NCBI RefSeq assembly: GCF_000801955.1
Contig: NZ_JSZO01000004.1
Coordinates: 62,001 to 126,000, forward strand
Direction of reading: 5' to 3'
Length of the DNA: 64,000 bases
Origin: Ralstonia sp. A12
GTDB lineage: Bacteria > Pseudomonadota > Gammaproteobacteria > Burkholderiales > Burkholderiaceae
The position numbers and the translations under genes were made by a program. Below the pieces are notes generated by a model that had not been told where the DNA came from, ran no database searches, and saw only the letters and a list, made by a program, of their open reading frames with translations. Of the stretch, positions 5,111 through 47,695 are shown one piece after another (the stretch's first letter is position 1; every line of letters begins with the position of its first letter).

Positions 5111-6016
5111 TTAGTTCCCCGCGCTATCCGTCGGCGTATTGAACGAGTCCCGCAGCAAATAGCTCATCGGCACTTCCAAGTTCACACCATTCGGCGGAAT
5201 CGGCTGCTGGAACCACTTCTTGTACAGCTTCGGCACCTCGCCATCGACGATCAGGCGCGTCATCGATTGGTCGATCATCTTCTTGAACTCTGGGTCCTGC
5301 TTGCTGAGCATGATCGCGTACGACGACACAAGCTGCGTCTTGCCGGCCACCGTGAAGTCCGCCGGATTCTTGGACGTGGCACGCATGCCCGAGAGCAGGA
5401 TGTCATCACCCGCAAACGCATTGGCGCGGCCATCGGCCAGCATGGCGAAGGCGCTGCGCAGGTCGTTGGCATCCACCACGCGCATCGTCATGCCGCTCTC
5501 GTTGAGCTTGCGTGCGAGTTCCGCATTGGTTGATCCGCGCGCAGCCACCACCGTCTTGCCGTTCAGGTCTTCCCATTGCTGGATGCCCGAGTTCGCCTTG
5601 ACCAGCATGCGGCCCTTGGTGATGTAGTGCGGAATGGTGAAGGCCACCTTCTCGCGCCGATCCGGCGAGTTGTTGGTCGAGCCGCACTCCATGTCGGCCT
5701 TGCCCGCGGCGATCACGTCCATGCGGGTGGCAGCCGTCACCGGCACGTACTGCACCTTCAGGTCCGGGCGCTTGAGCGAGGTGCGCAGCGAATCGATCAG
5801 CCGCGAGCAGATGTCGATCGTGTAGCCGACCGGCTTGGTGCCGTCGAGGTACGAGAACGGGATGGAATCTTCACGGTAGGCCACGTGCACCGTGCCGGAA
5901 TCGCGGATGCGATCGAGCGTCGGGGTGGAAGCTACTGCGTTGGCAGCGGGAACAGCAAAGAACGCCGCAGGAACGGCAAGCGCGGCCAGCAGCCACGTGC
6001 GCGCAGGGAACAGCAT
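5111..6016 (-). CDS. Periplasmic amino-acid-binding protein (SBP_bac_3 family), tandem copy 1
   Basis: A 301-residue solute-binding protein with a Sec signal peptide (MLFPARTWLLAALAVPAAFF, cleavage probably after the AANA). The mature part begins TLDRIRDSGTVHVAYREDS and carries the family signature VGYTIDICSRL, typical of GltI-like glutamate/aspartate and polar amino-acid ABC receptors. The start at 6016 is chosen to give a proper signal peptide; in-frame codons upstream add an arginine-rich, unlikely extension. A close paralogue lies immediately upstream at 6274-7161. No permease or ATPase gene is adjacent, so the transporter partner must be encoded elsewhere or the protein has another role. 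Confidence 0.9.
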   Translation of the reverse strand: MLFPARTWLLAALAVPAAFFAVPAANAVASTPTLDRIRDSGTVHVAYREDSIPFSYLDGTKPVGYTIDICSRLIDSLRTSLKRPDLKVQYVPVTAATRMDVIAAGKADMECGSTNNSPDRREKVAFTIPHYITKGRMLVKANSGIQQWEDLNGKTVVAARGSTNAELARKLNESGMTMRVVDANDLRSAFAMLADGRANAFAGDDILLSGMRATSKNPADFTVAGKTQLVSSYAIMLSKQDPEFKKMIDQSMTRLIVDGEVPKLYKKWFQQPIPPNGVNLEVPMSYLLRDSFNTPTDSAGN

Positions 6017-6273
6017 CGTCAAAGGTCCTAGGAGAGGGTTAGGGCTATCTGGGCACGGCTGGCCGCCTCGCTGCCCTGTCGGCGCGGCCATCTGTGCAAT
6101 CGTTTGCCGGGCCAGGCCCCGCCGATTGCGCAGAACTGGCTTGCGCGCCGTCACTCCCCCCGGGGAATGCCAAAACGTGAAGCAATGTCACGCGCCGCCA
6201 TGGGCGCGCATTATGGCCTGATTACGGGTATACCCTCAAGCACCTTGCTGGTGCATCGCTTAGAGGTGTTGCG

Positions 6274-7161
6274 TCAGTCCGCCACCTTGTCGGTCGGGAA
6301 CTTGAACGAGTCGCGCAGCAGGAAGCTCATGGGGATATCCAGATGCACGCCGTTGGGCGGAATTGGCTGCTGGAACCACTTCTTGTAGAGCTTTTCCGCA
6401 TCGCCATCGAGGATCGTGCGCGACATTGCCAGGTCGATCACCTTCTTGAACTCCGCATCGTCCTTGCCAAGCATGATCGCGTACGGCGCCACGGCCAGGT
6501 TGGAGCCGACCACTGCGTAGTCCGCGGGGTTGGGCGAGGTGGCCCGGAAGCCGTAGAGCAGCACGTCGTCCATCGCAAAGGCATCGGCCTTGCCCGCGGC
6601 CACCATGCCGAAGGCCTCGGCGTGGTCCTTGGCTTCGATCACGTTGATCTTGAGCACGCGCGCATCGGCCATCGCCCGGATCTGCCCGCCGTTGGTGCTG
6701 CCGCGCGTGGACACCACCGTCTTGTTGTTGAGGTCTTCCCAGCGGTGGATACCTGAGCTGGTCTTCACAAGCATGCGGCTGCTGGCAATGTAATGCGGAA
6801 TAGTGAACGCTACCTTCTCGCGCCGCTCTCGCGTGTTGTTGGTCGAGCCACATTCCAGATCGGCCTTGCCTTCTGTGATGGCGACGATGCGGGTGGCGGG
6901 CGTTACCGCCACGTACTGCACCTTCAGGTCGGGCCGCTTGGCCGCCACCTTGATCGCGTCGACCAGCCGCGCGCACAGGTCGATCGAATACCCCACCGGC
7001 TTGCCGCCATCGAGGTAGGAAAACGGCACGGAGTTCTCGCGATAGGCCAGCCGGACGGCGCCGGTGTCGCGGATGCGGTCGAGCACGGGGGATGCAGCCA
7101 ACGCCTGGAATGCGCACAACGCCAGGCCGGCCGCGAGCAGAGCGCGGGTCGGATGCGGCAC
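6274..7161 (-). CDS. Periplasmic amino-acid-binding protein (SBP_bac_3 family), tandem copy 2
   Basis: A 295-residue paralogue of the neighbouring binding protein. It has a signal peptide (ALLAAGLALCAFQALAA) and then VLDRIRDTGAVRLAYRENS. Both copies share ECGSTNN, REKVAFTIPHYI and the C-terminal KKWFQQPIPPNGV, so they arose by local duplication. AGGAGAC upstream supports the ATG at 7161. The 257-bp gap between the copies suggests separate transcription. The ligand is probably a polar amino acid by family; which one cannot be read from sequence. Again no membrane component is encoded beside it. Confidence 0.9.
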   Translation of the reverse strand: MPHPTRALLAAGLALCAFQALAASPVLDRIRDTGAVRLAYRENSVPFSYLDGGKPVGYSIDLCARLVDAIKVAAKRPDLKVQYVAVTPATRIVAITEGKADLECGSTNNTRERREKVAFTIPHYIASSRMLVKTSSGIHRWEDLNNKTVVSTRGSTNGGQIRAMADARVLKINVIEAKDHAEAFGMVAAGKADAFAMDDVLLYGFRATSPNPADYAVVGSNLAVAPYAIMLGKDDAEFKKVIDLAMSRTILDGDAEKLYKKWFQQPIPPNGVHLDIPMSFLLRDSFKFPTDKVAD

Positions 7162-8938: not shown

Positions 8939-9585
8939 TGGGAGTCTCCTGGCGTGTCACTTTTGGTTGTGAGCCCATGGTAGACCAGCGGCGGTTTGGG
9001 TGGGTGGAGGCGGTTTTCCATACGGAGGGGCACACGCGATGCGCGCTCTCGATGCGCCGGTCAATACACGCAGGTAAATGTCATTACAAGTGGATGCGCC
9101 CCCATTTTTTTGTCGCGATGTGGTGTTGCCGCGATATTGAAATGGCGAGTCGGGATTGGTTGATCATGAATGGTCATGTTGTCTCAACTCCCATTCATTC
9201 CATCTCAATGAGAAATGCGAAGTGTTTATTTTTCAATGAGATGGCAAAGCGATACCTGAACGGGAAAACAGGATGGCAGCGCTGTTTTTGGCCGCTTCCT
9301 TCAAACGCGGTGTTGACGGGGCGGAGCGCCTTTTTTTAGCATCGCGTCCGGATCGAGATGCCAGTCAAAATGAAAAAGAAAGGCTGCGCGGATCTAACGG
9401 GGGAGTTTTTAAGGAAACACACACGGTGATTGCATGGCTTTGCGCGATGCAATGGAGGACGGGTGTGTCAATCCACGCACGATTCCCTCGTAACGGGGGC
9501 GTGCCTGACAGCAGCCAGGCACCGAATTTCGCAAGAACGCTCGAGAGAAAAAGCTCGCAACACAGCGGGCGGGAACGAGGGAGAA
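8939..9585. other. AT-rich intergenic region upstream of the giant autotransporter
   Basis: 647 bp with visibly lower GC than the surroundings, especially 9080-9420. No convincing gene: open frames across it have no plausible start or codon pattern. It holds a near-perfect inverted repeat at 9200-9244 and a weak 4-bp GC stem followed by seven T at about 9317-9335. It probably forms a long regulated leader for the autotransporter gene. Confidence 0.5.
9200..9244. promoter_or_regulatory. Inverted repeat upstream of the autotransporter gene
   Basis: The arms CCATCTCAATGA (9200-9211) and TCAATGAGATGG (9233-9244) pair at 11 of 12 positions around a 21-bp AT-rich spacer. It could be a regulator-binding site or a leader hairpin. 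It has no T-tract on the plus strand, so a simple terminator is unlikely. Confidence 0.4.
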
Positions 9586-12500
9586 ATGCGCGTGCTGACA
9601 CAAAACAGCCCGTTGGGCCGGCATGGGGTTGCCGGATGGTCGACGTTGCAGCGTTTGGGGGCGGTGCGGCGTGCGTGGATGCAGCGGTGCCTGCTGGCCA
9701 TGCTGACGGCGTGGCTGGCGTTGCTATCGCAGGGGGCGGCCGGTTGTTCGGTTGCCTTCCCGGCCAACGTCAACACGCAAACGACCTACCAACTCAGCAA
9801 TTCGGATCTGAGCAATTGCGATCCGGTTAGTCTCGGTATTGCCTACAACAATCAGGGTCAGTCCAACCCGGCGGCAAGTAACCCCGGGATGATGCAAGCC
9901 ACATCGGCGGGTGGTCTGATCTCCGTATATGTCGATGTGAATTCGGGCGCTGAGGGCTTCGTTTACTACGCACCTCCCAACTTCAGTGGCAACGATACGG
10001 CGCCCTTTTACAACAACGTCGACGGTACCGGCTGGGTACCCAGCACCGTCAATATCTCGGTCACCGGTTCCACGCCCACGGTGACCGGGCTGTCGACTTC
10101 AACTGGCACCGCCGCCGGCGGCACGAGCGTCACCATCACCGGGACCAATCTCTTCAGGGGCCCGATGTCGACGGTCTGGTTCGGCTCGACCAGGGCCACC
10201 AGTGTCAACATCGTGAGCAGCACGCAGATCAATGCTGTCTCGCCACCTGGCTCCGGCGTGGTCGATGTATCGGTCTCGACATTTAGTGGCACCAGTACCG
10301 TGAGCGGTGCCGACAAGTTCACCTACGTCGCTGCGCCTACGGCCGGCGCGACCAGCACCACCGTGGCGCACGGCAGCACCAGCAACGTTGTTCCGCTGAA
10401 CGTCACCGGCTCGCCGACGAGCGTGGCCGTGGCCGCACAGCCGACCCACGGTACCGCCACTGCCAGCGGTACGACGATCACCTACACGCCCAACGCATCG
10501 TATTCAGGGCCGGATTCATTGACGTATACCGCCACGAACGCAGGCGGAACATCGGTGCCGGCCACGGTCTCGATCACGGTATCGGACGCGACAGTCGCGT
10601 ACACGGCGTCGCCGCCCTCGGGGGGCACGGTGGGCGTGGCCTACAGCCAGTCGCTGGCATCGGCCAGCGGCGGCACGGCGCCTTACACCTATGCGCTGGC
10701 GTCGGGCACCTTGCCCGCAGGGCTCGCACTGGCGAGCAACGGTACGCTGTCGGGCACGCCGACGTCGTCCGGTAGTTTCAACTTCTCCATAACGGCCACG
10801 GACAGCAGCACCGGCACCGGGCCATTCACAGGCACCAGCGGCAACGTTGCGCTGACCATCGCACAGCCTGTGATCATCGTGTCGCCGGCCACGTTGCCCA
10901 TGGCGACAGTGGCTTCGGCCTACAGCCAGACGGTATCGGCCAGTGGCGGCACGGCACCCTACACCTATGCCGTCACGGCCGGCAACCTGCCCGCGGGTTT
11001 GACGCTCAGTTCAGGTGGTGTGATTTCGGGTACGCCCACGGCTGGGGGCGTGTTCAACTTCGCCGTCACGGCCACCGACCACACTGGCGGCGCGGGGCCG
11101 TACATCAGCAACCAGGTGTATTCGCTCACCGTGAATGCGACCACGTTGTCGATCGCGCCGTCGGCAGGCAACCTGAGTGCCACAGCCGGCACGCCGTATA
11201 GCCAGAGCTTTACCGGTAGCGGCGGCACCTCGCCATACATCTACAGCTTCAGCATCAATTCCGGTTCGCTGCCGACGGGCCTGTCGTTCAATACGGGTAC
11301 GGGCACGCTGTCGGGCACGCCCACCACTTCAGGCACGGTCAACTTCACGGTCACTGCCAGGGACAACTCGACGGGCACAGGGCCGTACACGGTGGCCAGC
11401 ACTTACACACTGACGACCGCTGCGCCCACGATCACCGTGTCGCCCGCGTCGCTCGCGAATGGCACGGTGGGCGTGGCTTACAGTCAGACGGCTTCGGCCG
11501 GTGGCGGTACCGCGCCGTACACCTACGCAGTGACCACCGGTGCGCTGCCGGCAGGTCTGAGCCTGAACAGCAGCACGGGCGCGATCACGGGCACGCCCAC
11601 GGCGGGCGGGGTGTTCAATGTCATCGTCACCGCCACCGATGCCAACGGCTATACCGGCACGCGCAACTATGGCCTGAGCATCGCCGCACCCGCGATCAAC
11701 GTGAACCCGGTCACGCTGCCGGGCGCGACGACAGGTGCGGCCTACTCGCAGAGCATGTCGACCAGTGGCGGTACGTCGCCGTACGGCTACGTCATCTCAG
11801 TCGGCTCGCTGCCGCCCGGCATGACGCTGACTTCCACCGGCACGCTCTCAGGTACGCCTACTGCGGGCGGTACCTTCAACTTCAGCATCACGAGCACCGA
11901 CAACAGCACCGGCACCGGTGCGCCGTACACCGGCAGCCGTGCCTATGCGCTGACTGTCGCGGCACCGACGCTGACGATGACGCCGGCATCGGGTGCGCTC
12001 AATGCCATGGGGGGCACGGCCTTCAGCCGTAGTTTCAGCGTGGCGGGCGGCACGGGGCCGTATACCTATGTCACGGCGATCAGCTCCGGCACGTTGCCGG
12101 CCGGCCTTGTGCTGAATGCCGGCACGGCGACGTTGTCGGGCACGCCCACCACGGCCGGCACGGTCAGCTTTACCGTGACGGCGACCGACAGCAGCACCGG
12201 CAGCGGCCCCTATGCGGTGACGGGTACCTACACGCTGACCGTATCGGCACCGACCATCTCGATCACACCGGCTATGCTGCCCAACCCGGCCATTGCCACG
12301 GCCTACAGCCAGACCGTGACGGCCAGCGGCGGTACCGGGCCGTACAGCTACACCATCATGTCGGGTGCATTGCCGACGGGCCTGTCGTTGAGTTCGGGCG
12401 GCGCACTCTCGGGCACGCCCACGGCTGGCGGTACGTTCAATTTCACGATCAAGGCCACCGACGCCAACAGTTTTTCGGGTAGTCAGTCCTATTCGGTTAC

Positions 12501-42021: not shown

Positions 42022-43359
42022 ATGCGACATTTCATCATTGTGGGTGCGGGCATTGCCGGGCTGAGTGCCGCGCGCCATCTGCAGCGGGCCGGCTGCTCCG
42101 TCACCGTGCTGGAAGCGGCGCGCGCGCCCGGCGGGCGCATCCGCAGCGTGCCCTTTCACGGCCAGACCATCGAGTGCGGCGCGCAGTTTGTATCGTCGCG
42201 CTACCGCTATGTGCTACCGCTGCTGGAGGAGGCTGGGCTGTCTACTCGCTTGCGCAAGACCTCGGCCGTGGCGGCCATGCAGCGTGGGCCGGTGTTCCAC
42301 GCCGTGCACAGCAAGCGCCCGTGGACGCTCGGCACCAGTGGCCAACTCACCTGGGGCGAGACCTGGCAGATGCTGCGCGGCGGCCTGGCCACCGCGCGCG
42401 AGGTGCGCGGCGTCGACCCGAGTCACTACGCCAGCCTCGCAGCGCTGGACGACGAAGATGCGCAGGCCTGGAGCACGCGCGTATTCGGTGAGGCCGCCGC
42501 GCGCTACTTCTTCGAGCCGATGGTCCATGGCCTGTATTTTCATAGGCTGGCCGGTACCTCACGCGCGCTGCTGGGTGCGCTCACTGCCTTCAACGGCGCT
42601 GACACGCTGACGGTCGATGGCGGCTGGCAAGCTTTGCCACGTGCGATGGCTTCAGCGCTCGACGTGCGTTACGGCGCGAATGTGGAGCAGGTCAGAGAAA
42701 CGCAGGAAGGCGTACGCCTGTGCGTGAACGGGGAATGGCTCGACGCCGATGGCGCGGTGCTCGCCGCGCCGGCCCATATCGCGCGCGCATGGCTGCCACA
42801 GCCCACGCTTGGAGAATCCGCCGTGCTGGATGCGCGCTACGCACCGAGCGTGCATGTGGCGCTGGGGCTCCCGCCATCCTGGTCGGCGCCCAAGGTCTTC
42901 CAGCCGGTGTATGGCGCGCTGTTTGCGCCGGTAGAAGGCAGTCCGCTGGCCGCACTCACGTTTCAGCAGGGGAAGGCATCTGGCGATGGCCCGATCGTCT
43001 GCGCGATGCTGGGCGAGCGCGCAGCGGCAGAGGCAGAGCATTTGAGCGATACGGCGCTGGTGCGCTTTGTCGTGGAGGCGATGGCTGCGCACCTGCCTGG
43101 CATCGACCGGGCTGCGGTGTCGACACACCTGCAGCGCTGGGAAGCAGCCGAGCCGCTCACACCCGTGGGCCGTGCCCGCGCGGTTGCGGCGTACCGCAAC
43201 ACGGTCGGGCGCGATCGTCGTATCGTCCTAGCCGGGGATTACCTCGGCAGCCCGTGGACTGACGGTGCCGCAGAAACTGGCCACTGGGCCGCGCAGCACT
43301 TGCTGGCGGCCCGCATGCCACAGCCAGATCACGCGGCGCTGGCCCGGGCGGTTGCCTGA
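42022..43359 (+). CDS. FAD-dependent amine-oxidase / protoporphyrinogen-oxidase-like protein
   Basis: 445 residues. The N-terminal dinucleotide-binding motif is IIVGAGIAGLSAARHLQRAG, followed by VLEAARAPGGRIRS, the GG doublet characteristic of the flavin amine oxidase superfamily. The C-terminal FAD segment is RRIVLAGDYLGSPWTDGAAETG. It resembles HemY-like and carotenoid-desaturase-like oxidases; hemY assignment is not safe because no other haem genes are nearby. It is divergent from the TetR regulator and convergent with the binding-protein gene. Confidence 0.85.
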   Translation: MRHFIIVGAGIAGLSAARHLQRAGCSVTVLEAARAPGGRIRSVPFHGQTIECGAQFVSSRYRYVLPLLEEAGLSTRLRKTSAVAAMQRGPVFHAVHSKRPWTLGTSGQLTWGETWQMLRGGLATAREVRGVDPSHYASLAALDDEDAQAWSTRVFGEAAARYFFEPMVHGLYFHRLAGTSRALLGALTAFNGADTLTVDGGWQALPRAMASALDVRYGANVEQVRETQEGVRLCVNGEWLDADGAVLAAPAHIARAWLPQPTLGESAVLDARYAPSVHVALGLPPSWSAPKVFQPVYGALFAPVEGSPLAALTFQQGKASGDGPIVCAMLGERAAAEAEHLSDTALVRFVVEAMAAHLPGIDRAAVSTHLQRWEAAEPLTPVGRARAVAAYRNTVGRDRRIVLAGDYLGSPWTDGAAETGHWAAQHLLAARMPQPDHAALARAVA

Positions 43360-43383: not shown

Positions 43384-44289
43384 TTACTCGAACGGCGTGT
43401 CGTTCGGGTTGGCGTACAACGCCTTCAACTGATCGCTCATCTTGAAGTTGAAGTTCAGGCTCTTGGGCGGCACCGGCTTCTCGAACCACTTGGCATAGAG
43501 CGTGTTGATCTCGCCGCTCTTCATGACGCTGGTGAGCGTGTCGTCCACCAGCTTCTTGAACTGCGGATCGTCCTTGCGCAGCATGAAGCCGTAGGCCTCG
43601 AACGACTGCGGCGTGCCGGTCACGACCCAGTCGTTGGGCTTCTGTGCCAACGTGCGCGCGCCGGCCAGCAGCACGTCATCCATCATGAACGCCGCCACGC
43701 GGCCGCTCTGCAGCGTGAGGAAGGATTCCCCATAGTCCTTGCCGCTGATGACGTTCATGTTCATCTTCTTTTCGTCATTCATCTTGCGCAGGATGCGCTC
43801 CGACGTCGTGCCTGCATTGGTGATGACCGACTTGCCCGCCAGATCGGGGAAGTCTTTCACGCCCGAGTTCACGCCGGTCAGCAGGCGTGTGCCGGCGATG
43901 AAGAACGTGGTCGAGAACGCCGTCTGCTGCTCGCGCGACTTCAGGTGCGTGGTCACGCCGCACTCCAGATCCACCGAGCCGTTCTGCACCAGCGACGTAC
44001 GGTTTTGCGAGGTGACCGGAATCTGCTGCACCTGCAGGTTGGGCTTGCCCGTCTTCTGCTTGACCGCGTCGATCACGCGCGAACACAGGTCCGCCGAGAA
44101 GCCGATGATCTTGTTCTGGCTGTCGCGGTACGAAAACGGAATCGACGATTCGCGCACGCCGATCAGGATGGTGTTGCTGTCCTGGATCTTTTTGAGCGCG
44201 CCGTCGAGTGTCTGAGCCTGCGCGCTCAGCGCAAACAGCCCGGCCAGCGCCAGCGGGATGGATCGGATACCGCGGGTGGTCAAACGCAT
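43384..44289 (-). CDS. Periplasmic amino-acid-binding protein (GltI-like), operon-linked copy
   Basis: 301 residues. A signal peptide (SIPLALAGLFALSAQAQ) precedes LDGALKKIQDSNTILIGVRE. It contains DLCSRVIDAVKQKTGKPNL and ECGVTTHLKSREQQ, as in GltI glutamate/aspartate receptors, and the C-terminal KWFEKPVPPKSLNFNFKMS. GGAGGAAGT gives a strong ribosome-binding site. It is the last gene of the regulator-aminotransferase-BKACE unit, 84 bp after the BKACE gene, so it probably captures that pathway's amino-acid substrate. No permease or ATPase is adjacent. Confidence 0.9.
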   Translation of the reverse strand: MRLTTRGIRSIPLALAGLFALSAQAQTLDGALKKIQDSNTILIGVRESSIPFSYRDSQNKIIGFSADLCSRVIDAVKQKTGKPNLQVQQIPVTSQNRTSLVQNGSVDLECGVTTHLKSREQQTAFSTTFFIAGTRLLTGVNSGVKDFPDLAGKSVITNAGTTSERILRKMNDEKKMNMNVISGKDYGESFLTLQSGRVAAFMMDDVLLAGARTLAQKPNDWVVTGTPQSFEAYGFMLRKDDPQFKKLVDDTLTSVMKSGEINTLYAKWFEKPVPPKSLNFNFKMSDQLKALYANPNDTPFE

Positions 44290-44373
44290 ACTTCCTCCAA
44301 AGGTTGTGTGGCGCGGCCTGATACGTGTCGGGCCGTCTGTGTGATGGCTTCGTGGTGTGCAAAGTGGGCGCGC

Positions 44374-45228
44374 TTACCTGCCGAACCAACTGCGCAACTC
44401 GGCGGCGCTGGCCAGCGGGCGATGCAGTGCGTCGAGATGACCTCGCAGATTGGTGACGAGCGCCGCGTTGTCGGGGGCGGTGCTGCCGTCGGGCAGCATC
44501 ATGTTGTTCTCGAAGCCCAAGCGGGCATGGCCGCCGAGCAGTGCTGCCGTGAGCGCGCATTCGGCTTCGCGCGGGCCAAACGCACACATCGCCCATGGCA
44601 CGTTGGCCGTGACCTCGCCGCCCTCAGCCCACGCTTGCAGGAACGGCAGCAGGTCAGACGGATCAGAGCGTTGCCCCGCCGAGTAGCGGCCGAGCACGAA
44701 CAGCACCCAGTGCGGCATGTCGGATGGAGGGGGCAACACGCCGCGCGCGCGCAGAGCGCGGTAGCGCACCACGTCGTCGGCGGAATAGAGGATGTACTGG
44801 ATGGCCGTGCGCGTCGCAGCGAGCTCGCCGAAGAAACGTGCAGCCTCCGCTTCGTGCGCAGCATCGGGCACCAGCTCGCGCAGTGCGGCAGAGATGGCCT
44901 CCGGCTGCAGTGCTCGCACCGATGCCATCTGTTGTTCAGGCGTGTAGATGCCAACGGCTTCCGTAGTGATCTGGAGCACCAGCGCGTCGCCCACCGCCCG
45001 CTGCACGGCGGCGATGGCCGGGCGGTAATCGTCGGGCTCCAGACTGTGCGTGCCGTCGGGGCGGCGCACATGCAGATGCAGCATCGCAGCGCCGGCCTCG
45101 ACACACTGGCGCGCACAGGCAGCCAGTTCGTCGGGCGTGATCGGCAGTGCGGGGTGATCGACGTGCGTCTTGCGCGCGCCATTGGGCGCAACGGCGATGG
45201 CGATGGGCCGGCTCACGGGGTTCACCAC
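44374..45228 (-). CDS. BKACE-family beta-keto acid cleavage enzyme
   Basis: 284 residues of the DUF849/BKACE family, TIM-barrel zinc enzymes typified by 3-keto-5-aminohexanoate cleavage enzyme (Kce). They cleave a beta-keto acid using acetyl-CoA, giving acetoacetate and a CoA ester. MLHLHVRRPDG supplies the two zinc histidines, and TTEAVGIYTPEQ and GLRR-like barrel loops fit the fold. Start: GTG at 45228 or 45225; the latter overlaps the aminotransferase stop as GTGA. Co-transcribed with the aminotransferase upstream. The substrate is not predictable beyond a beta-keto acid. Confidence 0.9.
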   Translation of the reverse strand: MVNPVSRPIAIAVAPNGARKTHVDHPALPITPDELAACARQCVEAGAAMLHLHVRRPDGTHSLEPDDYRPAIAAVQRAVGDALVLQITTEAVGIYTPEQQMASVRALQPEAISAALRELVPDAAHEAEAARFFGELAATRTAIQYILYSADDVVRYRALRARGVLPPPSDMPHWVLFVLGRYSAGQRSDPSDLLPFLQAWAEGGEVTANVPWAMCAFGPREAECALTAALLGGHARLGFENNMMLPDGSTAPDNAALVTNLRGHLDALHRPLASAAELRSWFGR

Positions 45229-46577
45229 ACGGCCTCCGGCGCGTTGGCGGTGGCGGCGTCCACGGCATCGCCCAGGCGTTCGACGATGGCATCGATGTCC
45301 TGCGCGGTGGCGATGAACGGCGGCGCGAGCAGGATGTGGTCGCCGCGCTGGCCGTCGATCGTGCCCCCCATCGGATAGACCATCAGGCCGCGCTGCATGG
45401 CCTCGGCCTTCACACGTGCATGCGTCTTGTGCGAGGGCGCCAGCGGTGCCTTGGTGGCGCGATCGGCAACGAGCTCCACGCCGACGAACAGCCCGCGCCC
45501 GCGCACGTCGCCCACGTGGGCGTGGTCAGCAAAGCGTGCACGCAAAGCGGCGCGCAGTTGCTCACCGCGCGCCTGCACATTGGCGAGCAGGTTCTCTTCG
45601 GCAATCACCTTCTGCACTTCCAGTGCCGCCGCACATGCCGTGGCGTGGCCGATGTAGGTATGCCCATGCTGGAAGAAACCGCTGCCGCGCGTGATGGCGT
45701 CATAGATGCGGCGGCTCACCAGCGTGGCGCCGATCGGCTGGTACCCGCCGCCCAGGCCCTTGGCAATGGCGACCATGTCGGGCACCACGCCATCTTCTTC
45801 ATAGGCAAAGAGGTAACCCGTGCGGCCCATGCCGGACATCACCTCGTCCAGCAACAGCAGCACGCCGTGGCGGTCACACACTGCGCGGATGCGGCGGAAG
45901 TAATCCGCCACCGGTGGCACCGCGCCGGCCGTGGCACCCACCACCGTCTCGGCGACAAAGGCGGCGACGTTTTCAGAACCCAACTCGACGATCTTCGCGT
46001 CCAGCTCATCGGCCAGACGCTGCACGTACTGCGCATCGGTTTCCCCAACGAGGCGCTCGCGGTAGGCAAAGCACGGCGACACATGGTGTGCTGGCACGAG
46101 CAATGGCAGGAACGGCTCGCGCCGCCACGCGTTGCCGCCAATCGCCAGCGCGCCGAGCGTGTTGCCGTGATAGCTCTGGCGTCGCGCGATGAAGTACTGG
46201 CGCTGCGGCTGGCCAATTTCGACGAAGTACTGACGCGCGAGCTTGAGCGCTGCCTCAATCGCTTCCGAGCCGCCGGAGACGAAGTACACGTGGTCCAGAT
46301 CGCCTGGTGCAGCAGCGGTCAGGCGCGCGGCGAGTTCTTCCGCCACATCCGTCGTGAAGAACGACGTATGTGCATACGCCAGCGCGCGCACCTGTTTGCA
46401 GATGGCTTCGACCACGCGCGGATGCCCGTGACCCAGGCACGAGACGGCTGCGCCGCCGCAGGCATCGAGGTAGCGTTTGCCGTCGGAGTCGATGAGTGTC
46501 ATGCCCTCGCCGCCGACGGCGGTGGGCAACGTTTTGCGCGGGTCGCGATGGAAGACGGAGGTGGTGGATGGGGTCAT
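45222..46577 (-). CDS. Class III aminotransferase (omega/beta-amino acid type)
   Basis: 451 residues of the PLP-dependent fold type I class III family. PLP-binding features are FVSGGSEAIEAALKLARQY, LLLDEVMSGMGRTG and the Schiff-base Lys in MVAIAKGLGGGYQPIGA. The C-terminal half carries RGRGLFVGVELVADR. It would move an amino group from a beta- or omega-amino acid to a keto acid. It starts 16 bp after the RpiR-type regulator stop and overlaps the BKACE gene. With BKACE next door, a beta-amino-acid donor giving a beta-keto acid product is the most economical reading. Confidence 0.92.
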   Translation of the reverse strand: MTPSTTSVFHRDPRKTLPTAVGGEGMTLIDSDGKRYLDACGGAAVSCLGHGHPRVVEAICKQVRALAYAHTSFFTTDVAEELAARLTAAAPGDLDHVYFVSGGSEAIEAALKLARQYFVEIGQPQRQYFIARRQSYHGNTLGALAIGGNAWRREPFLPLLVPAHHVSPCFAYRERLVGETDAQYVQRLADELDAKIVELGSENVAAFVAETVVGATAGAVPPVADYFRRIRAVCDRHGVLLLLDEVMSGMGRTGYLFAYEEDGVVPDMVAIAKGLGGGYQPIGATLVSRRIYDAITRGSGFFQHGHTYIGHATACAAALEVQKVIAEENLLANVQARGEQLRAALRARFADHAHVGDVRGRGLFVGVELVADRATKAPLAPSHKTHARVKAEAMQRGLMVYPMGGTIDGQRGDHILLAPPFIATAQDIDAIVERLGDAVDAATANAPEAVW

Positions 46578-46593
46578 GGCCAATGGCTGGATG

Positions 46594-47514
46594 TCAGCGT
46601 TGAGTGGGTGCCGTGGGCGTGGGATGCGCGACAGCCGCTTCACTGCGGCGGGCACTGCGTACGTAGGCTTGCTGCTGTTTGAGTTGGGCGTCGCTGTCGG
46701 CCAGGTGCGCGAGTGCGGTGGGGCCGGCTTGGCGGAACCACGTCATCAGCAGCGCATCGAGCAGCGCAAGCGGCGCGGCAAGCGAATGGAAGAACGACGG
46801 GATTGCCACCGGTGCCACAAGCTGCTGCCACGCCAGCTCGGCACCGGGTGCGATGGCGCTGTCGGTCACGTAGACCAGGCGCGCGCCGCGCGCATGCGCG
46901 TACTGCATCGCCTCGATCACCTCGCGCGTGTACGGATCAAACGTGACGGCGATGACGACATCGCCCTCGCCGCAGAAGCGCAGCGGATCGGCCAGCGTGT
47001 TGCCGGCGCCGCTGCACAGCGTGACCTTGTCGTCGAACAGCTGAGCGGCGTAACCAAACGCATGCGTCAGCGCGAGGCAACTGCGCGCGCCGAGCAGATA
47101 GACGCGGCGCGCCGAGCACAGTGCGCCGGCAGCGGCGTCCAGTGCGGCCAGATTGGCCGGCGAAAACGCCGCTTGTACGTGCGCGCCGATGGTGCTGCCG
47201 ATGCGTTCAGCCTCGGATGCGCCGGCCGCGTCGCTGCCCTGCAGCGCACTGGCCCGGCCGGCAAAGCCATCCGCCTGCTGGCGCAGGTGGTTCACGCAGA
47301 TGTCGCGCAGCGCGGCAAAGTCATCGAAGCCCAGCGCGCGTGCAAGGCGTGAGAACGTGGCCGGCGGCAGGTCGCAGCGGCGTGCCAGATCCCGCATGGA
47401 GAGCAGGGCGATATCGCTCTGATGGGTTTCCAGCAGCATGGCGGCACGCTGCAACTGCGGTGACAGATCCCCCGCGCGATCGCGCAACGTCTGCATGAGC
47501 CCATCGAAGGTCAT
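46594..47514 (-). CDS. MurR/RpiR-family transcriptional regulator
   Basis: 306 residues: an N-terminal HTH of the RpiR type (MRDLARRCDLPPATFSRLAR, about residues 40-59) and a C-terminal SIS domain (YLLGARSCLALTHAF and VIAVTFDPYTREVIEA). It is the first gene of a leftward four-gene unit. A 16-bp inverted repeat centred 37 bp upstream of its start overlaps the likely promoter, so it probably represses its own operon until the effector binds the SIS domain. Confidence 0.92.
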   Translation of the reverse strand: MTFDGLMQTLRDRAGDLSPQLQRAAMLLETHQSDIALLSMRDLARRCDLPPATFSRLARALGFDDFAALRDICVNHLRQQADGFAGRASALQGSDAAGASEAERIGSTIGAHVQAAFSPANLAALDAAAGALCSARRVYLLGARSCLALTHAFGYAAQLFDDKVTLCSGAGNTLADPLRFCGEGDVVIAVTFDPYTREVIEAMQYAHARGARLVYVTDSAIAPGAELAWQQLVAPVAIPSFFHSLAAPLALLDALLMTWFRQAGPTALAHLADSDAQLKQQQAYVRSARRSEAAVAHPTPTAPTQR

Positions 47515-47527
47515 CGAAATAGCGAAA

Positions 47528-47574
47528 TTGATTCAACTGTTTCGTAAACTACGACAGTGAAACAATTGAGTCAA
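47528..47574 (-). promoter_or_regulatory. Operator/promoter of the RpiR operon
   Basis: Read leftward, TTGACTCAATTGTTTC (47574-47559) and GAAACAGTTGAATCAA (47543-47528) form an inverted repeat matching at 14 of 16 positions with a 15-bp spacer. TTGACT is a 5/6 match to the -35 box, and TAGTTT 17 bp further is a weak -10. So the palindrome covers the whole promoter, as expected for a repressor site. Confidence 0.7.
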
Positions 47575-47648: not shown

Positions 47649-47671
47649 AAAAACGGAGGCCGAAGCCTCCG
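47649..47671 (-). terminator. First of two tandem leftward terminators
   Basis: Stem CGGAGGC / GCCTCCG with a TTCG tetraloop on the minus strand, followed by five T. It lies 25 bp after the stop of the small membrane gene. Confidence 0.9.
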
Positions 47672-47695
47672 TCTGGGATGTGATGGATACGCGGC

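Follow-up and report, generated by a model that had tools for sequence, protein, structure and literature searches.

In BKACE15 of Paracoccus, E171 is the proposed base and a Glu171-to-Leu change abolished activity, according to excerpts of the report on that enzyme (PMC11961710), and its Tyr173 corresponds to Tyr145 of Kce in the part of a second paper drawn on here (PMC12871164). A summary of Bastard et al. (2014) describes one group of the BKACE family, G6, with 70 proteins, as "not BKACE, presenting decarboxylation activity" and gives 16 beta-ketoglutarate cases (PMC4922564). Here we analyzed a stretch of 64,000 nt from Ralstonia sp. A12 (NZ_JSZO01000004.1, positions 62,001-126,000; hereafter the window), in which an operon at 43384..47574 encodes an RpiR-type regulator, a class III aminotransferase, a BKACE-fold enzyme and a periplasmic substrate-binding protein (SBP). 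We propose that this RpiR-controlled operon would serve the use of an acidic beta-amino acid, with beta-glutamate (3-aminoglutarate) as the leading candidate, and that its BKACE-fold enzyme may be a decarboxylase.

All four genes lie on the minus strand. They are consecutive, with a gap of 16 bp between the regulator and aminotransferase genes, an overlap of 7 bp (or 4 bp) between the aminotransferase and BKACE genes, and a gap of 84 bp before the SBP gene, which reproduces the coordinates and spacings of an initial annotation of the locus:

46594..47514, minus strand: RpiR-type regulator with a SIS domain, from Pfam/NCBIfam profile search
45222..46577, minus strand: class III aminotransferase, NCBIfam PRK07483; ATG start, alternative in-frame GTG at 46655
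44374..45228, minus strand: BKACE-fold enzyme, member of the Glu90/Ile146/Asn241 clade and proposed to decarboxylate a beta-keto acid; GTG start, second GTG at 45225
43384..44289, minus strand: orphan SBP of the GltI (Glu/Asp) type, pocket altered at Val112 and Tyr186

The aminotransferase matches Aminotran_3 (PF00202) at 321 bits and belongs to PRK07483 (818 bits, cut-off 485); its K273, which we take to be the pyridoxal phosphate lysine, is present in 93/93 aligned sequences. The BKACE-like protein carries the PF05853 domain (223.6 bits, cut-off 24.8) and scores under the cut-offs of all four matching NCBIfam BKACE-family models. The SBP matches SBP_bac_3 and passes the model of the Glu/Asp binding protein, PRK10797 (382.4 bits, cut-off 375). 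In the regulator, the SIS domain PF01380 was matched at 52.9 bits; the N-terminus looks helix-turn-helix-like by eye, with no Pfam helix-turn-helix match at 0.001 and no NCBIfam RpiR model above its cut-off.

Four codons of the BKACE-like gene set its product apart from Kce:

45172..45174, minus strand: Arg19 (Kce Glu14 place), which may bind the second carboxylate
44959..44961, minus strand: Glu90 (Kce Gly84 place), right after strand beta-3
44791..44793, minus strand: Ile146 (BKACE catalytic Glu place), end of strand beta-5
44506..44508, minus strand: Asn241 (Kce Asp231 place)

The zinc ligands His-x-His and Glu are retained (H51, H53 and E240), as is Tyr148, the counterpart of Tyr145 in Kce and Tyr173 in BKACE15; many BKACE-family rows bearing the catalytic Glu have Phe at this place. 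Because Tyr173/Tyr145 aligns with Tyr148, the place of E171 is that of Ile146, and the catalytic Glu (E171 in BKACE15, Glu143 in Kce) is Ile in the window protein and throughout its clade. We aligned 164 rows: Kce, 3no5, 84 relatives and an outgroup of 78 that includes the window. Glu84, Ile143 and Asn231 in Kce numbers (Glu90, Ile146 and Asn241 in the window) co-occur in 94/94 clade members, and all 58 rows with the catalytic Glu143 have Gly or Ser at 84 and Asp at 231. The share of the clade among the outgroups (10/78, window included) is not a rate, because 20 of the fetched rows were chosen as low scorers; two of the 82 outgroup loci held no BKACE ORF, two more had one of 200 aa or less, and many weaker matches were left unfetched.

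In an AlphaFold2 model (pLDDT 92.4), the BKACE-like protein forms a TIM-barrel whose top structure matches are DUF849/BKACE proteins. Glu90 lies just past strand 3 and Ile146 where strand 5 ends, which is the catalytic side in barrels of this kind. Alignment and model thus indicate that the zinc site is retained and that the base for acetyl-CoA chemistry has been lost or relocated. The apparent switch is a coupled one: a Glu lost from strand 5, a Glu gained after strand 3, and Asp replaced by Asn. The initial annotation had assumed acetyl-CoA-dependent cleavage to an acyl-CoA, a step that these residues do not support; with the catalytic Glu replaced by Ile146, decarboxylation is therefore at least as likely.

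Two further observations concern the family at large. The 12 rows with neither the catalytic nor the compensating Glu (L002, L134-L137, L177, L180, L181, L183, L186-L188) may be further non-BKACE groups. A second BKACE-family gene of the Ralstonia genome, on another contig (L028, ~9136-10191), has Gln at the catalytic Glu place and adjoins MFS transporter-like and AraC-type regulator-like genes (by eye).

The substrate side of the pocket points to an acidic compound. Kce Glu14 presumably contacts the substrate amino group. Its place is taken by Arg in 58/85 loci, of which 55 are beside an aminotransferase gene, one beside a dehydrogenase gene and two beside neither, and by Tyr in 27/85, of which 17 are beside a dehydrogenase gene, four beside an aminotransferase gene and six beside neither. 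An Arg beside the substrate suggests an extra carboxylate.

Transport genes lean the same way. In the Glu/Asp protein of known structure (2ia4/2vha), we take four residues (Arg24, Arg75, Ser90, His164) to form the glutamate pocket of GltI; the SBP retains the two Arg residues. The full pocket is not present: Ser90 is replaced by Val112 and His164 by Tyr186, changes shared by 14/14 aligned linked GltI-type SBPs (22 loci hold a linked SBP, and 14 of them were aligned). Among seven aligned paralogues of the same genome, L009 and L011 have Ser/His and L010 has Val/Gln; Tyr replaces the His in none of the seven. At other loci the aminotransferase gene is accompanied by TAXI-TRAP systems (9/20 larger aminotransferase loci), a GlnH-type ABC system, an AapJ-like SBP (by eye) or a sodium:dicarboxylate symporter, all from superfamilies that tend toward acidic amino acids or dicarboxylates. 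The linked TAXI proteins are similar to the V. cholerae TAXI protein of known structure, which is glutamate-specific in the part of its report used here (PMC11574862). In 22 rows from 19 loci chosen by TAXI match, 21 keep most ligand residues, Asp157 is changed in 22/22 and Met201 in 20/22; this pocket comparison is weak, because another solved TAXI protein (9oz4) also differs at Asp157/Met201.

These data make an acidic beta-amino acid the likely substrate of the operon and are consistent with the role of substrate capture that the initial annotation gave to the SBP. Its candidates beta-alanine, 3-aminobutyrate and beta-lysine fit poorly because the SBP is of the acidic-amino-acid type and because of Arg19; a beta-dicarboxylic amino acid fits better. 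BKACEs able to cleave malonate semialdehyde are described in excerpts of PMC11961710; we rejected beta-alanine, for which this cleavage would give formyl-CoA, as a misfit with Arg19 and the SBP. Beta-lysine and other cations were rejected as Arg replaces Glu14 of Kce.

Other transport-related genes were seen in passing. At 5111-7161 of the window (minus strand), two tandem GltI-like SBP genes score 239 and 227 bits to PRK10797, below the cut-off; a comparison of the first 12 kb of the window with ABC references gave no permease match. In L227, L229 and L230 (Bradyrhizobium-like by eye), a gene for an Asp/Glu-racemase-family protein, checked with Pfam for L230, ends an operon with the order RpiR, aminotransferase, AapJ-like SBP. 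The Asp/Glu-racemase fold includes decarboxylases, and this protein may be another replacement for the BKACE step.

On the product side, a gene for acetoacetate-CoA ligase follows the aminotransferase and BKACE genes in L023 (898 bits to TIGR01217). In L241 and L244 (one genus) it comes after the aminotransferase gene, and no BKACE is seen there. With such neighbors in 3/92 loci, the acetoacetate product named in the initial annotation is likely. Glu143 is retained in both of the PF05853 matches found in the L241 genome (90% complete), and the Ralstonia genome encodes an acetoacetate-CoA ligase elsewhere (778.7 bits). In one gammaproteobacterial genus, a CMD-like gene directly follows the aminotransferase gene in 7/10 aminotransferase-bearing genomes, and in L226 and L233 a CMD-like gene is beside it; no BKACE gene occurs in the stretch seen at any of these loci. 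The CMD-like protein of the genus has no Pfam match and is 44% identical to that of L233. A CMD-like protein in the place of the BKACE, together with loci that have neither, fits a beta-keto acid that readily loses CO2. Of the acidic beta-amino acids considered, only beta-glutamate gives acetoacetate via one decarboxylation, and the sequence beta-glutamate, 3-oxoglutarate, acetoacetate would account for all of these observations.

In the route we propose, periplasmic beta-glutamate would be captured by the GltI-type SBP and imported by a Glu/Asp ABC permease whose genes lie elsewhere. The class III aminotransferase would convert beta-glutamate to 3-oxoglutarate, in keeping with the conversion of a beta-amino to a beta-keto acid of the initial annotation, whose logic holds. 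The BKACE-fold zinc enzyme, without an acetyl-CoA base, would then turn 3-oxoglutarate into acetoacetate and CO2, and the acetoacetate-CoA ligase encoded elsewhere in the genome, with a thiolase, would complete the route. The sequences show the genes with their order and conservation, the residue switch, the operator-like sites and the neighbors; the substrate, the decarboxylation, the choice of permease and the thiolase step are what we infer from these comparisons. Beta-glutamate with decarboxylation is the best-supported specific reading of the sequences, held tentatively and at a little under an even chance. The wider proposal, that this is a dedicated bacterial beta-glutamate pathway in which the coupled switch turned a BKACE fold into a 3-oxoglutarate decarboxylase and CMD-like proteins carry out the same step elsewhere, is possible and is put forward with rather more reserve.

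The existence of the operon and its conservation are solid. The order RpiR, aminotransferase, BKACE, SBP is found in the window and in 11/11 close Ralstonia/Burkholderiaceae loci, which bears out the co-location of these genes with their own regulator and answers the search for a conserved neighborhood in other Burkholderiales that the initial annotation had suggested. The nearest named relatives of the BKACE-like protein (90-94% identity) are mainly from R. pickettii and other Ralstonia strains. An aminotransferase gene at >50% identity lies within 3 kb in 59/85 BKACE-relative loci, a linkage that exceeds chance (L024 and L050, both in this count, are one genome, and L050 is omitted from the gene-run and 164-row residue counts), and BKACE shares the gene run of the aminotransferase in 56/92 loci. 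The pair occurs in Ralstonia, Cupriavidus, Pandoraea and many Alpha- and Gammaproteobacteria, including the marine groups SAR92, Porticoccaceae and Aestuariispira.

The pair is conserved yet sporadic in distribution. A sample of 300 genomes of the order held a close BKACE relative in only six (own genome included), three linked to the aminotransferase and three to a dehydrogenase. The aminotransferase (PRK07483) is present in 31/249 genomes of a phylum sample and 15/321 of a class sample. BKACE lies within 1.5 kb at 13 of the 30 aminotransferase loci of the phylum sample, the window among the 13 (two of the 32 matches came without a locus), and at 20/44 distinct loci when both samples are pooled, again with the window. 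In a tree of 79 rows with near-copies omitted, a split with support 98/96 sets the window BKACE clade apart from other BKACEs; loci linked to the aminotransferase are scattered through the clade, and those linked to a dehydrogenase fall mostly in one subgroup. Several branches of this tree are long and its bootstrap values are not settled.

Individual loci show variations. In L033, one of the close loci, the aminotransferase and SBP genes each match in two pieces, and may therefore be broken or mis-sequenced in this draft. In L097, from a record titled Mesoflavibacter (Bacteroidota), operon and BKACE group with Alphaproteobacteria, and the label may be wrong. A class I aminotransferase gene follows the aminotransferase and BKACE genes in L040, L042, L047-L049, L052, L053, L055 and L068 (Cupriavidus group), being of the PRK06108 type in L055, and a class I gene precedes them in L074. 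In Pandoraea (L043, L046, L051, L058, L059, L061, L064), a chemoreceptor-type gene, checked with Pfam for L061, comes directly after the pair, with CheW-/CheR-like genes behind it (by eye) and the look of a Wsp-type cluster.

Several observations weigh against beta-glutamate and decarboxylation. The substrate is deduced from families with variable ligands, the SBP has no adjacent permease gene, and the paralogue L010 of the same genome likewise has Val at the Ser90 place. Arg19 tracks the aminotransferase imperfectly: four aminotransferase-linked loci have Tyr and three Arg loci have no aminotransferase. BKACE is absent from the 1.5 kb around the aminotransferase in 24/44 sampled loci. The 3/92 loci with an acetoacetate-CoA ligase near the aminotransferase include two from one genus, and the upstream side of L244 is unseen because its contig begins ~100 bases before the aminotransferase gene. 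The Pfam cut-off for CMD is passed by L226 only (L233 scores 20.8 against 23), and CMD-like proteins can serve other functions.

Finally, Glu90 could be a relocated base that retains acetyl-CoA chemistry. This would favor the mechanism of the initial annotation, in which 3-oxoglutarate would be cleaved to acetoacetate and malonyl-CoA with Glu90 replacing the lost catalytic Glu. We consider it unlikely, although it is the rival that survives best. A hydrophobic residue occupies the catalytic position throughout the clade, and aminotransferase and acetoacetate-CoA ligase genes occur with no BKACE seen beside them. Malonyl-CoA decarboxylase was sought in the Ralstonia genome and gave no match, but neither did the positive control, so this says little. 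It is improbable that the substrate is some other acidic beta-amino acid, for example 3-aminoadipate, leading to a different keto acid and product: Arg19 and the transporters indicate only that the substrate is acidic and would suit it, but the acetoacetate-CoA ligase neighbors are left unexplained because decarboxylation of 3-oxoadipate yields no acetoacetate. We regard as very improbable that the aminotransferase acts on 3-aminobutyrate, forming acetoacetate directly and leaving the BKACE-like enzyme a side role. The ligase adjoining the aminotransferase in L241 and L244, with no BKACE seen, would agree with it, but the tight pairing of aminotransferase and BKACE, Arg19, the acidic amino-acid transporters and the CMD-like replacement would all lack an explanation. 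Equally doubtful is that aspartate or another acidic amino acid gives an oxaloacetate-like keto acid for ObcA-like cleavage (oxaloacetate + acetyl-CoA to oxalate + acetoacetate), since to our knowledge aspartate requires no dedicated class III aminotransferase, the SBP pocket is altered, and neither the CMD-like replacement nor the pairs of aminotransferase and acetoacetate-CoA ligase would be explained.

The operon also carries candidate regulatory elements:

47529..47574, minus strand: 46-bp near-palindrome, predicted RpiR operator, over a promoter-like TTGACT-17-TAGTTT
47651..47674, minus strand: terminator-like hairpin with a T tail and a 10-bp stem, likely the end of the preceding gene

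The near-palindrome was absent from the initial annotation, though it reaches exactly to the end given there (47574). It has a single occurrence in the window and in each of 11/11 Ralstonia-group loci, before the RpiR start (the pattern was derived from an alignment of nine of these 12 loci). A sigma-70 scan of the region passed no site, TTGACT-17-TAGTTT included. The hairpin is weak on its own, because its class was observed at three sites in the region with 2.9 expected by chance; 8/9 aligned upstream regions (window counted) share the second arm and the T tail of the hairpin. Downstream, a convergent amine-oxidase gene ending at 43359 bounds the operon. With the hairpin upstream, the convergent gene downstream, and the palindrome and promoter-like site before the regulator gene, the four genes look like a single unit. 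Loci of the Cupriavidus/Pandoraea group have divergent RpiR and aminotransferase genes in 28/29 cases. The pattern TG[ACT]AAC-N4-GTT[GT]CA, derived from six of these loci, is present in the same 28 RpiR-aminotransferase regions, with 45 sites in 9,588 bases, and has no match in the remaining 556,476 bases of the loci. The regulator may bind the palindrome and the pattern sites, and would presumably act as a repressor.

Beta-glutamate is the top identified metabolite of the marine ammonia-oxidizing archaeon Nitrosopumilus maritimus (730 mM intracellular) in a passage of PMC8269262, and is described as a methanogen osmolyte in passages of PMC8269262 and PMC1224877. A search of open-license papers, mostly by listing, found no genes for beta-glutamate breakdown and no pathway with this gene set, as the initial annotation, which is partly supported overall, had presumed; on beta-glutamate catabolism it turned up mainly osmolyte papers and papers on unrelated subjects. 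If true, our proposal would supply missing genes for the recycling of an osmolyte abundant in marine archaea. The residue switch also means that BKACE labels on members of this clade may predict the wrong reaction.

Compared with the described systems, the SBP is above the family cut-off of GltI/DEBP (2ia4/2vha) and keeps both Arg residues, but differs from it at Ser90 and His164 and in that permease genes are not adjacent. Relative to Kce and ordinary BKACEs, the window enzyme has Ile146 for the catalytic Glu, Asn241 for Asp231, Glu90 for Gly84 and Arg19 for Glu14. With group G6, as described in summary, it shares the predicted reaction, and the lack of a cleavage base would agree with the label "not BKACE". 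Carnitine-type routes combine a 3-hydroxyacid dehydrogenase with a BKACE. Their logic is shared by a sister group of the same BKACE clade with a 3-hydroxyacyl-CoA-dehydrogenase-type (3HCDH-type) enzyme beside it (L025, L026, L027, L076, L079, L087 and others, often near LysR and TctC/Bug-like genes), which is probably a hydroxy-acid version of the same route. We rejected these dehydrogenase-linked loci as members of the same system: they mostly form a group of their own, and 17/18 carry Tyr where Kce has Glu14. In the operon described here, the aminotransferase replaces the dehydrogenase, and mostly Arg19 is found where the sister group has Tyr.

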